Assembly (NCBI RefSeq): GCF_009602465.1 | Contig: NZ_WBKP01000003.1 | Coordinates: 62,001 to 126,000 of the forward strand | Direction: 5' to 3' | Length of the DNA: 64,000 bases | Source of the DNA: Cumulibacter manganitolerans | Lineage (GTDB): Bacteria > Actinomycetota > Actinomycetes > Mycobacteriales > Antricoccaceae | In this document: one piece after another, positions 1 to 4,709 of the stretch | Numbering within the stretch: the stretch's first letter is position 1 | Layout: every line of letters begins with the position of its first letter | Notes under the pieces: generated by a model | What the model saw: the letters and a program-made list of their open reading frames with translations, nothing else | Database searches by the model: none | Told to the model about the DNA's origin: nothing | Translations under genes and position numbers: made by a program

Positions 1-253
1 CCGTAATCGGGTCATGGCCCATCCCAACCAACAGCGCGAGCTGAGCTTCCGAGACCTGCCCTCCATCGACCAGCTCGCCGTGCCCGAGCCGACCCAGCCC
101 CGAGCCCATCCAGAAGCCCGGCGGCGTCCCCGCCTCCGCGTAGTAGCGGGTCAACGGCGTGCTCAGGCTCCGGTCGCCGTCGCCCGCAGCGATGGACTTC
201 AACAGGTACTTGTACCCATCGCCCGCGCTCATCACGCGCATCGAAACCGTCAC
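1..253 (-). CDS. MobF-family conjugative relaxase, N-terminal part (cut by window edge)
   Basis: Reading the minus strand from a GTG at 253 gives 84 codons without a stop, running off the left edge. The protein begins VTVSMRVMSAGDGYKYLLKS and continues with TPLTRYYAEAGTPPGFWMG, the N-terminal signature of TrwC/TraA (MobF) relaxases. These nick one DNA strand at oriT and remain bound to its 5' end during transfer. A strong ribosome-binding site (GGAAGGAG, 8 nt before the GTG) fixes the start. The catalytic tyrosine lies in this N-terminal region in the family, and the histidine triad and helicase domain should lie further left, outside the window. It is divergent from the methyltransferase gene, with the candidate oriT between them. 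The family call is from recognisable motifs only, but I am fairly sure of it. Confidence 0.85.
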   Translation of the reverse strand, partial: MTVSMRVMSAGDGYKYLLKSIAAGDGDRSLSTPLTRYYAEAGTPPGFWMGSGLGRLGHGELVDGGQVSEAQLALLVGMGHDPIT

Positions 254-569: not shown

Positions 570-1676
570 ATGCACGATCCACACGACCGGACTCACCCGC
601 TCAGAGTCGGATCGCTGTTCTCCGGCTACGGCGGGCTCGACCTCGCCGTCGAACACGCCTTGGATACCGAGACGATCTGGTTCTCCGAGAACAACGGGCA
701 CGTCTCGCACATCTTCGCCCACCACTGGCCCGACGCCCCCAACCTGGGCGACATCACCACCATCGACTGGCGCACCGTCGAGCCGGTCGATGTTCTCTGC
801 GGAGGCTTCCCCTGCCAGGACGTGTCGACCGTGGGCAAGCGCGCCGGCCTCGCACCCGGCACCCGCTCCGGGCTCTGGTCGTACATGGCCGCCGCGATCG
901 ACGCGCTGCAACCCCAGCTCGTCGTCATCGAGAACGTGCGCGGCCTGCTGTCCTCGCCCGCCGTCCGCGAACCCCTGGAAGGAGACGACGATGCACAAAG
1001 CAACCCCGACCACGCAACCCCCGGCGATGCAACCCTTCGCGACCTGGAACCCGACCCGTGGGGTCTGGGAGACATTGCAGCTCGACCTCTCCGGGCGGCA
1101 GGCGCCGTACTCGGCGATCTGGCCGACCTGCGGTATGACGCGGAATGGATCGGCCTACCAGCGTCCCTTGTCGGCGCTCCTCACCATCGTTTCCGCATCT
1201 TCATCGTCGCCCAACGTGATGTTCCGGACCCCGCTCGCAACGGACTCTTCTCGCGGTGGAGAGAGCCTGGATCAGGTACGGGCGCGGCATGGGACGATCG
1301 CCTTGTCGCACCAGATCATCGACCTCGCCTTGAACGGACCGGGCGGCTCTCCGAGCAGATGCGACGAGTCGGAGACCTTGTGGACCCTGATCGACGGACT
1401 GTTCGACGCTGGGGACGCTACGCCCGAGCCATCGCCCAATGGGAACACGTCACCGGACAGGATGCACCTGCTCCCGCCCTCCTAAACGACGGCAGAGGTC
1501 CGCGTCTGGCACCCGCGTTTGTGGAATGGCTCATGGGTCTCGAACCCGGCTGGGTTACCGACCCCGGATACGGGCTCACTCAGAACCAGCAGATTACTGC
1601 CCTCGGCAACGGAGTCCTCCCGCTGCAAGCGGTGACCGCTCTGGTCAAGACTGTGCAGCGCGAACATGCTGCGTAG
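570..1676 (+). CDS. DNA (cytosine-5) methyltransferase
   Basis: 368 aa. It transfers a methyl group from S-adenosylmethionine to C5 of cytosine in DNA. Visible motifs in order are FSGYGGLD near residue 16 (motif I, SAM binding), GGFPCQDVS near residue 78 (motif IV with the catalytic Cys), IENVRG near residue 118 (motif VI), the HHRFRIF segment near residue 205 (motif VIII) and a C-terminal ITALGNGV (motif X). The start is supported by GGAG 6 nt upstream. No cognate restriction enzyme gene is visible, so on a conjugative element it may protect the incoming DNA against host restriction (inference). From 991 to 1485 the same strand carries a second long reading frame, listed separately. Confidence 0.9.
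   Translation: MHDPHDRTHPLRVGSLFSGYGGLDLAVEHALDTETIWFSENNGHVSHIFAHHWPDAPNLGDITTIDWRTVEPVDVLCGGFPCQDVSTVGKRAGLAPGTRSGLWSYMAAAIDALQPQLVVIENVRGLLSSPAVREPLEGDDDAQSNPDHATPGDATLRDLEPDPWGLGDIAARPLRAAGAVLGDLADLRYDAEWIGLPASLVGAPHHRFRIFIVAQRDVPDPARNGLFSRWREPGSGTGAAWDDRLVAPDHRPRLERTGRLSEQMRRVGDLVDPDRRTVRRWGRYARAIAQWEHVTGQDAPAPALLNDGRGPRLAPAFVEWLMGLEPGWVTDPGYGLTQNQQITALGNGVLPLQAVTALVKTVQREHAA
991..1485 (+). CDS. Overlapping ORF nested in the methyltransferase gene (phage methylase-associated-like protein)
   Basis: 164 codons in a different frame on the same strand, wholly inside the methyltransferase gene. The ATG has a strong ribosome-binding site (GGAAGGAG, 7 nt upstream). The product contains VWETLQLDLSG, PYSAIWPTCGMTRNGSAY and a serine-rich stretch followed by FRTPLATDSSRGGE. 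I recall the same kind of sequence (W..T..L.G...PYS.TWP.SGMTRNG.AY) in small proteins encoded beside DNA methylases in actinobacteriophages. The methyltransferase frame over the same bases also looks conserved, so both frames may be used. The alternative is that the ORF is only a chance by-product of codon composition. Function is unknown. Confidence 0.5.
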   Translation: MHKATPTTQPPAMQPFATWNPTRGVWETLQLDLSGRQAPYSAIWPTCGMTRNGSAYQRPLSALLTIVSASSSSPNVMFRTPLATDSSRGGESLDQVRARHGTIALSHQIIDLALNGPGGSPSRCDESETLWTLIDGLFDAGDATPEPSPNGNTSPDRMHLLPPS

Positions 1677-1773: not shown

Positions 1774-2295
1774 TCAACGTCGTAGTGAGATGGCGGGAAT
1801 ACGGAAGTAGACCTCGGCCCAACGTCGCTCGTATTCGGCCGGCGTCAGGAACTCACTTGTGCGAGCGTTGTCGAGTGCGATCAAGGCCCTGTGGCAGGAA
1901 ACAAGTAGATCAGGGTTGCCATCAATGGTCGTGCTGGGGGCGGCGCGGAAGTTGATCTCGACCGTAAGTGAACGCGTCTGGTCGCGAAGCCTGCGCGTCA
2001 GGCGTCGAGTCACGAGGCCGAATGCGGCGGCAGTTGCAAGGACGCTTGTGAGGAGCGCCCAGCTTGGCAGCCCGTCGATGAGAGCGGCAATCAAGAGTCC
2101 GGCTGAGGAGCCGTATGCGGGTGCGATCCGGTCGATGGCGATCAGTCTCCGATCACGGCTCGTCGTGCCAGGAGGATGCACTTCCAGGAAGAAGAGTTGT
2201 GTTCCGTGTGCGGGACCGAGCGTGCGGACCGTACCCCAGCGCCTAGTGAGGGTCCTGACTTCCTGGAGCCGGTCGATCATGTCGTGGGTGTTCAC
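1774..2295 (-). CDS. Hypothetical protein with one central hydrophobic region (DUF6611-like)
   Basis: From a GTG at 2295 the product is 173 aa. The open frame extends further upstream to 2559, but that part looks non-coding and covers repeat element A. AGGCGG before the GTG is a weak ribosome-binding site, and an ATG at 2280 is the other possible start. The middle contains a hydrophobic stretch (GLLIAALIDGLPSWALLTSV, then more Ala/Leu) predicted to form one or two membrane segments. The C-terminal third is soluble and charged. The pattern resembles the actinobacterial DUF6611 family, which I recall only loosely. It sits between the methyltransferase and the kdp locus and points away from kdp. 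Function is unknown. Confidence 0.5.
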   Translation of the reverse strand: MNTHDMIDRLQEVRTLTRRWGTVRTLGPAHGTQLFFLEVHPPGTTSRDRRLIAIDRIAPAYGSSAGLLIAALIDGLPSWALLTSVLATAAAFGLVTRRLTRRLRDQTRSLTVEINFRAAPSTTIDGNPDLLVSCHRALIALDNARTSEFLTPAEYERRWAEVYFRIPAISLRR

Positions 2296-2410
2296 GGTCC
2301 GGCCGCCTAGACCGCGGCTCGCGGTCCGCTGGGTGAGGTCGCGCAAGCGCCACCCCGCGCCGCAGCCTTTACGCTCATCTCCCCATTGGATCGGGTATCG
2401 GAAACCCGCG

Positions 2411-2460
2411 CCGTATGGACAGCGCGAGGATTCACCCAAGTCCTGTATGCGTTCCGTTAG
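2411..2460 (+). repeat. kdp-associated 50-bp repeat, copy A
   Basis: Begins CCGTATGGAC and ends GTATGCGTTCCGTTAG. It has exactly the length of copies B (2714-2763) and C (7966-8015), and the same conserved ends with a variable middle. It lies 303 bp before copy B in the same orientation. No convincing kdp-type small ORF follows it. The 2296-2866 interval otherwise holds only repeat B and no confident gene, and 2461-2713 may be a decayed duplicate of a kdp leader. A likely role is an operator for KdpE or another regulator (inference). Confidence 0.6.
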
Positions 2461-2713
2461 ACCAGATGATCTTCGTCTGTCTCGGCGCCCCATCTCGTGG
2501 TTGGTCGCGTGGAACCGCCCGCTGTCCGAATCTCTTTCCGCTCGTCGACGAGCCGGCATGCCAAGGAGAGCCCCTTCACATACGTCAAGCGTGTCCTGTG
2601 GGGACTCCGACCGCGACCGACGACGGGAGCCACCGTGGCCGCCGTATGCGCGCTCGGCCGACAGGCCCTTGACATCGCTTGATCTTGATCGTCCGCGTGC
2701 GGCCGGGCCCCGA

Positions 2714-2950: not shown

Positions 2951-3036
2951 TCATCTTCGAGCTGGCCGCTGCGGTGCTCGGTGTCGCGGCCGTCGTCTAT
3001 CTCGTCTTCGCGCTCATCAAGCCGGAGCGGTTCTGA
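2947..3036 (+). CDS. kdpF: KdpF, small stabilising subunit of K+-transporting ATPase (copy 1)
   Basis: 29 aa, GTG start. It has a single transmembrane helix ([19 protein letters not shown]) and ends with the KdpF-typical KPERF. KdpF is a lipid-like one-helix subunit that stabilises the KdpABC complex in the membrane. It overlaps the preceding peptide gene by GTGA and kdpA by TGATG, so the four genes are coupled in translation. Confidence 0.9.
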
Positions 3037-4709
3037 TGGGGTGGCTGTTTGCGATCGCCGCACTGGCGACGGTCGCCTTGTTCCTGGCGGTGGTGCACCG
3101 TCCGCTTGGGGACTACATGGCGTGGGTGTACAGCGCCCCCAAGCACTGGAAGATCGAGCGGGGCATCTACCGGCTGATCGGCGTCGACGCCAAGAGCGAG
3201 CAGACCTGGCAGGCATACCTGCGGGGGGTGCTGGCGTTCTCCGCGGTGGGTCTGCTGCTGGTGTACGGGCTGCAGCGGCTGCAGTGGTGGCTGCCGTACT
3301 CGCTGGGCCTGCCTGCGCCGTCGGAGCACCTGTCGTTCAACACGGCCGCCTCGTTCGTGGGGAACACGAACTGGCAGTCCTACTCGGGTGAGCTGACCCT
3401 CGGCTACACGGTGCAGTTCGCAGGCCTTGCCGTGCAGAACTTCGTGTCCGCGGCGGTCGGGATGGCGGTGGCGATCGCCCTCGTGCGCGGCTTCGCGTAC
3501 CGCCGCAGCGGCACGATCGGCAACTTCTGGACCGATCTGGTGCGCGGCACCATCCGCATCCTGCTGCCGATCGCGGCGATCGGTGCGATCGTGCTGCTCG
3601 CCGGCGGGGTGATCCAGAACTTCAACGGCTTCACCGAGGTGAGCACGCTCACCGGGGGCGCCCAGTCGATCCCCGGTGGGCCGGTCGCCTCGCAGGAGGT
3701 TATCAAGCTGCTCGGCACCAACGGCGGCGGCTTCTTCAACACCAACTCCGCCCACCCCTTCGAGAACCCGACCGCCTGGACGAACGTCGTCGAGGTGCTG
3801 CTCATGCTGGTCATCCCGTTCTCACTGCCGCGCACCTTCGGCCGCCTCGTCGGAGACAAGCGGCAGGGCTACGCGATCCTCGCCGTCATGGGCGTGCTGT
3901 TCGTGGCATCCTTCGCGATCCTCACCGCGATCGAGAGCGGAGGGATGGGCACCGCCCCGCAGCTCGCGGGCGGTGCAATGGAGGGCAAGGAGCAACGGTT
4001 CGGGATCATCGGCTCGACCCTGTTCTCGACCACCTCCACCGGCACCTCCACCGGCGCGGTGAACGCGATGCACGACTCCTACACCGCGCTGGGCGGCATG
4101 ATACCGATGCTCAACATGATGCTCGGCGAGGTCGCACCCGGCGGGGTCGGCTCCGGCCTGTACGGGCTGCTGGTTCTGGCGGTGATCGCGGTGTTTGTCG
4201 CCGGTCTGCTGATCGGACGCACCCCGGAGTACCTGGGCAAGAAGATCGGGCCACGGGAGATCAAGCTGGCAAGCTTGTACATCCTCGTCATGCCGATCCT
4301 CGTGCTTGCCGGTACCGCGCTGAGCTTCGCGATACCCGGCGTCCGGGACGAGGTGACCTCGGTGTCGATCTGGAACCCCGGCGTGCACGGCATGTCGGAG
4401 GTGTTGTACGCCTTCACTTCGGCCGCCAACAACAATGGGTCCGCGTTCGCCGGGCTCACTGCGAATACGCCATGGCTGAACGTCACCCTGGGGCTGGCGA
4501 TCCTGCTGGGCCGATTCGTCCCGATCGTGCTGGTGCTTGCCCTGGCCGGATCGCTTGCCGCGCAGGACAAAGTCCCTGCTACCGCGGGGACCCTGCCGAC
4601 GCATCGGCCTCAGTTCATCGGTCTGCTGACCGTCGTCACGGTGCTGGTTACCGCTTTGACCTTCTTCCCCGTTCTCACGCTGGGTCCCCTGGCGGAAGGG
4701 CTGCTCTGA
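3036..4709 (+). CDS. kdpA: KdpA, K+-channel-like subunit of K+-transporting ATPase (copy 1)
   Basis: 557 aa, the usual family length. It is the potassium-binding, channel-like subunit with four pore loops. Conserved segments visible are [19 protein letters not shown] (first loop), [19 protein letters not shown] (second), MEGKEQRFG with [11 protein letters not shown] (third, D347 retained) and [13 protein letters not shown] (fourth, N465 retained). All match the canonical pattern, so this copy should form a normal selectivity filter. ATG 3036 overlaps the kdpF stop. It is part of the kdpFABC operon 2947-7513. Confidence 0.97.

Follow-up and report, generated by a model that had tools for sequence, protein, structure and literature searches.

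The beta polypeptide of the methyltransferase M.EcoHK31I is reportedly encoded within alpha, in a different reading frame; bacterial gene nesting in which two conserved products are functional partners is rare. M.EcoHK31I and M.AquI are described as C5-methyltransferases made of two polypeptides (PMC3404938). M.EcoHK31I, whose target is YGGCCR, carries motifs I-VIII and X in alpha and motif IX in beta, and its predicted target recognition domain (TRD) was placed in alpha in the same 2012 account (PMC3404938). Papers on the actinophage methylase family treat an intein, a homing endonuclease and the out-of-frame HNH of ShiLan (PMC9957025, PMC11855218). The locus considered here, from Cumulibacter manganitolerans, appears on motif layout to be nearest to the naturally split M.AquI and M.EcoHK31I, but to differ from them in the way the motifs are partitioned.

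The window (the whole 64,000-nucleotide stretch that was analyzed) contains the following features at this locus. NEST is a label coined here for the N-terminal domain of the nested protein.

2 to 253, minus strand: start of a TrwC/MobF relaxase gene (1188 aa, mostly beyond the window; PF08751, E 1e-94), divergent from alpha
570 to 1676, plus strand: alpha, a C5-cytosine methyltransferase ORF of 368 aa (PF00145, E 9.8e-32; M.HhaI-like model)
about 801 to 818, plus strand: alpha motif IV, GGFPCQ
about 930 to 941, plus strand: alpha motif VI, ENVR
977 to 984, plus strand: Shine-Dalgarno sequence GGAAGGAG, read directly, 6 nt upstream of the nested ATG
991 to 1485, plus strand: beta, a nested +1-frame gene of 164 aa, comprising the NEST domain, one TRD-like module and a tail
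1021 to 1170, plus strand: NEST domain (beta residues about 11-60), overprinted on the alpha motif-VIII region (conserved columns, model, phrog_1008)
about 1146 to 1211, plus strand: alpha motif VIII
about 1222 to 1341, plus strand: TRD-like module FRTPLATDSSRGGESLDQVRARHGTIALSHQIIDL in the beta frame (module survey)
about 1500 to 1541, plus strand: alpha IX-like motif
about 1599 to 1622, plus strand: alpha motif X

Alpha has the properties of a C5-cytosine DNA methyltransferase: the PF00145 match, GGFPCQD (IV), IENVRG (VI) and the fold of the class, its model aligning with M.HhaI (1fjx_A) over 243 residues with a Z of 23.2 and an rmsd of 3.3. The exception is the TRD. No module was found in the alpha frame of the window between motifs VIII and IX, and at the expected TRD site residues 220-251 are unconserved and disordered in the model (pLDDT 33-39). 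Since a missing TRD is an exception common to natural split enzymes, we read alpha as a C5-methyltransferase subunit.

The nested ATG opens a frame of 164 codons, +1 relative to the ORF at 570-1676. The stop-free stretch of this frame begins at 382, and spurious ORFs of more than 200 aa are also present; because GC-rich DNA with several spurious long ORFs makes ORF length little evidence, we relied on comparison. Relatives of the nested protein occur at 23 actinobacterial loci (62-90% identity), with a further two loci 100% identical, and at most of the 23 neither frame is interrupted and the register is the same. GGAAGGAG is kept across relatives although the surrounding methyltransferase loop is poorly conserved. 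The initial annotation had described a 164-codon same-strand frame with its own ribosome-binding site inside the C5-methyltransferase gene; the conserved relatives, and substitutions that fit the nested frame (below), bear this out, and by these two comparisons the nested frame is confirmed as real. Some relatives are damaged: alpha has stop codons in L007 and in L009, L011 and L013, beta has one in L025, and frameshifts affect L010, L020 and a second methyltransferase copy within the C. manganitolerans genome. This second copy (L130, G000:C2:104563-105069) also holds the nested frame, with indels in both frames.

A profile search matched the nested protein to phrog_1008 (E 1e-10), and 196 phage records, all with actinobacterial hosts, match it at E<=1e-3, in keeping with the earlier suggestion that it resembles small proteins of actinophage methylase loci. 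Scanning viral_contigs with the single nested sequence gave no match; with an alignment of the protein the scan gave 80 loci. Pfam, NCBIfam and PADLOC searches were without match, as were sequence and fold searches of the PDB at any credible level, from which novelty of the fold does not follow. Homologues annotated as separate genes, on which the nested-gene reading had been made to depend, do exist (ArV1_067b, GigiOuiOui 66, Smooch 6, xhp1 XHP1_00045 and WP_187326295.1), and each overlaps a methyltransferase; the last is from a plasmid record that annotates the nested protein alone, as 'hypothetical protein'. The likeness to phrog_1008, and to actinophage 'DNA methylase' genes (ArV1_067a/b, Abidatro 40/41, GigiOuiOui 65/66, Smooch 7/6), covers both products: NEST matches profile positions 60-149 and the C-terminal part of alpha positions 228-317, and all 15 scanned members match the family. 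The window differs in that each half of the profile falls in a frame of its own.

NEST is defined by the pattern WNPxRGVWET...PYSxxWPTxGMTRNGxAY, with invariant columns W, N, W, T, L, P, G, R and G across 15 diverse rows. Its blocks at residues 11-60 are modeled as confident strands (pLDDT 82-91), the rest of the beta model being of low confidence, and no solved structural relative was found by PDB sequence and fold searches. The same bases had been said to encode the methyltransferase region before motif VIII, and the survey agrees: NEST overlaps motif VIII, always in the +1 frame, at 112 of 113 surveyed loci, the exception (L020) being frameshifted. The +1 overlap is also seen in L120-L125 and L131-L137, which include further actinobacterial genomes, and the register is the same in a Microcystis phage, a Methylorubrum plasmid, a faecal phage, Smooch, Rothia phage Spartoi, a Streptomyces plasmid and ShiLan gp70. 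Across all these loci NEST was found neither free-standing nor fused in frame.

The HNH of ShiLan is likewise an out-of-frame protein in an actinophage methylase gene; however, it is a homing insertion of sparse distribution, whereas NEST, which ShiLan gp70 also carries, is no insertion. A homing-endonuclease insertion of this type was rejected for the nested protein, which has no HNH match in Pfam, NCBIfam or PADLOC and whose NEST domain covers conserved motif-VIII codons. Excerpts of the two actinophage papers make no mention of NEST (PMC9957025, PMC11855218). In Gordonia phage Ailee an HNH gene (L030:1081-1479) lies inside the joined CDS of the methyltransferase and shortly precedes an unannotated nested NEST frame.

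After NEST, beta carries a module of the 'F/L-x-TP' type, which in the window is present in the beta frame only. In phage relatives, tandem arrays of such modules occupy the interval from motif VIII to motif IX, which is the position of the TRD, and from this position the module in beta is probably a TRD; PDB sequence and fold searches matched it to no solved TRD. The distribution of modules and motifs divides the loci. In 50, the window included, motifs IX-X are in alpha, alpha has no module and the nested beta has one to five. In 27 split loci beta consists of NEST, modules and motifs IX-X. In another 27, modules occur in both frames and IX-X are in alpha, with the alpha modules between VIII and IX; there beta may add or replace specificity rather than be essential. 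In L131 (Microcystis phage) and L132 (Methylorubrum) beta also carries motif IX, and alpha motif X. At a Pseudoclavibacter locus (L021:2920-3714) IX-X are joined to the nested frame, yet alpha remains open beyond the module, possibly a recent switch of layout.

These layouts can be set against the two described enzymes. As in M.EcoHK31I, the window would by description encode two polypeptides, the second from an overlapping frame inside alpha; the difference is that alpha has both IX and X and that beta consists of NEST and a TRD-like module. By motif layout, the M.EcoHK31I split (IX in beta, X in alpha) is found in L131 and L132. M.AquI has a layout similar to that of the 27 relatives with IX-X in the smaller subunit; the window differs in keeping IX-X in alpha and in having a wholly nested beta, and NEST is absent from the description of AquI excerpted from PMC3404938. 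Searches of open-access papers turned up no account of an out-of-frame nested recognition subunit, which is weak evidence of absence.

Taken together, the comparisons make it probable that the overlapping frames of the locus specify the two subunits of one C5-cytosine DNA methyltransferase, in which the nested beta brings recognition. Alpha (570-1676) would provide the AdoMet-binding and catalytic core (motifs I-VIII) together with IX-X, a disordered linker taking the place of the TRD. Beta (991-1485) would begin within alpha, in the +1 frame, from its own ribosome-binding site; NEST, a small beta-strand domain, probably docks on alpha, and the single TRD-like module may supply sequence recognition in trans. 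Translation of beta from its own start, and its assembly with alpha, are what we infer from this arrangement. It is also conceivable that the nested gene encodes an independent factor of the mobile element, for example anti-restriction or regulatory, which overlaps the methyltransferase and is not its subunit. NEST has no solved relative, and where modules occur in both frames alpha could act alone, as this reading would allow; yet beta is never seen apart from the methyltransferase, itself carries IX-X in 27 loci and motif IX in two more, and accompanies in the window an alpha with no recognisable TRD. We regard a separate factor as unlikely.

If alpha is read straight through, it must remain open across the module wherever IX-X are in alpha phase, despite the lack of alpha conservation there. 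Loci were sorted by the phase of motifs IX-X (sorting by the open alpha frame would be partly circular), and one locus was taken per 70% beta-identity cluster. With IX-X in the phase of alpha, 39 of 40 clusters have an alpha frame that stays open across the modules; resampling beta synonymously, with the codon usage of the respective locus, gives an approximate expectation of 7.6. For long module arrays the figures are 23 of 24 and 1.5. All 17 clusters with IX-X in the phase of beta have a stopped alpha frame. The dependence of alpha openness on the phase of IX-X supports separate alpha and beta chains and opposes frameshifting, by which ribosomes would pass from alpha to the beta frame after VIII and return for IX-X, yielding one full-length enzyme with NEST as by-product. 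Such a double programmed shift gives the canonical order I-VIII, TRD, IX-X (compare the phage loci with alpha modules), but needs two shifts in opposite directions every time and has no need of an open alpha frame across the module; moreover, NEST, which lies ahead of any shift point, is conserved and has its own Shine-Dalgarno sequence and start, and in split loci beta is a separate ORF that continues to IX-X. We consider it very improbable.

Substitution frequencies by codon position were obtained from 11 intact loci, and change classes (synonymous or nonsynonymous in alpha and beta, relative to expectation) from six pairs of close relatives; in this register alpha codon position 3 is beta codon position 2. 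Upstream of the overlap alpha positions 1/2/3 change at.127/.096/.344, and alpha-synonymous/beta-nonsynonymous changes stand at 2.28 times expectation versus 0.62 for alpha-nonsynonymous/beta-synonymous. Over 1030-1218 the frequencies are.197/.090/.243 and the same two classes stand at 1.42 and 1.38, with changes nonsynonymous in both at 0.42. Over 1219-1428 the frequencies become.355/.188/.161 and the classes 0.62 versus 2.11, and amino-acid identity is 0.73 in the nested frame versus 0.51 in alpha. The frequencies are.163/.127/.467 over 1429-1485 and.227/.194/.551 downstream, the classes after 1429 being 2.06 versus 0.69. Both frames are under selection, and the pattern flips from alpha to both, to beta and back to alpha, such that about 190 bases are doubly constrained, the 210 that follow serve beta, and what remains serves alpha:

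about 1030 to 1218, plus strand: doubly constrained segment (change-class ratios)
1219 to 1428, plus strand: segment constrained in beta only, alpha being an open, unconserved linker (ratios, alpha model, module survey)
1429 to 1485, plus strand: alpha constrained again (WGRYARAIAQWEH...), the beta tail weakly conserved (substitution pattern)

Suppression of alpha-synonymous change, which dual coding had been expected to leave, is evident over 1030-1218 (38/313 codons vs 160/683 upstream, Fisher 2.5e-5) and over 1219-1428 (18/308 vs the same 160/683, Fisher 1e-12). The initial annotation had claimed dual coding over some 500 bases: this holds fully only for about 1030-1218, the nested frame being dominant over 1219-1428 and the methyltransferase over 1429-1485. 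Its nested-gene reading is thus supported, while the doubly constrained share of the 495 bases was overstated and the likely TRD in the nested frame overlooked. Long overlapping ORFs are common in this DNA, but a chance ORF of GC-rich sequence is ruled out by the substitution pattern, and a spurious frame that merely echoes methyltransferase conservation is scarcely credible given the higher nested-frame identity and mostly alpha-nonsynonymous/beta-synonymous changes over 1219-1428, and the beta relatives where IX-X are in the beta frame.

The neighborhood is that of a mobile element. The relaxase adjoins the methyltransferase, divergently, in 18 of the 23 actinobacterial loci; the enzyme is therefore probably an orphan, belonging to an element that is conjugative or mobilisable, and in the window, too, we take it to be the orphan modification enzyme of an element with a TrwC relaxase. 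No restriction partner came to light in the course of these comparisons. The TrwC/MobF relaxase gene (window 2-253 and L129:4687-8253, minus strand), divergent from the methyltransferase, has a DprA-family gene beyond it (L129:3618-4664). Near-identical methyltransferase regions lie beside a TrwC relaxase in L009, L010, L011 and L013 (Nocardia, a Microbacterium plasmid, Cellulosimicrobium and Haematomicrobium), pointing to recent mobile-element transfer; alpha has a stop at codon 53 in L009, L011 and L013 and a frameshift in L010, and beta is intact in all four. In the window a DUF6611 protein (1774-2559, minus strand; E 7e-43) lies between the methyltransferase and the gene at 3036-4709, presumably kdpA-like from its sequence.

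Beyond this locus, we lean, by a modest degree, toward an old and widespread class of C5-methyltransferases whose recognition subunit is obligately overprinted, +1, on the motif-VIII region of the catalytic subunit; either frame may carry the target modules, IX and X, and changes of frame would reassign domains while their order in the DNA stays constant. A single stretch of DNA appears to encode a catalytic core in one frame and the target-reading part in another, a layout that recurs over actinobacterial mobile elements and phages, with cyanophage and alphaproteobacterial examples, and of which annotation usually overlooks one of the two frames. With its natural series of motif partitions, the family makes the origin of split methyltransferases testable, and it suggests that recognition subunits may be swappable in trans.
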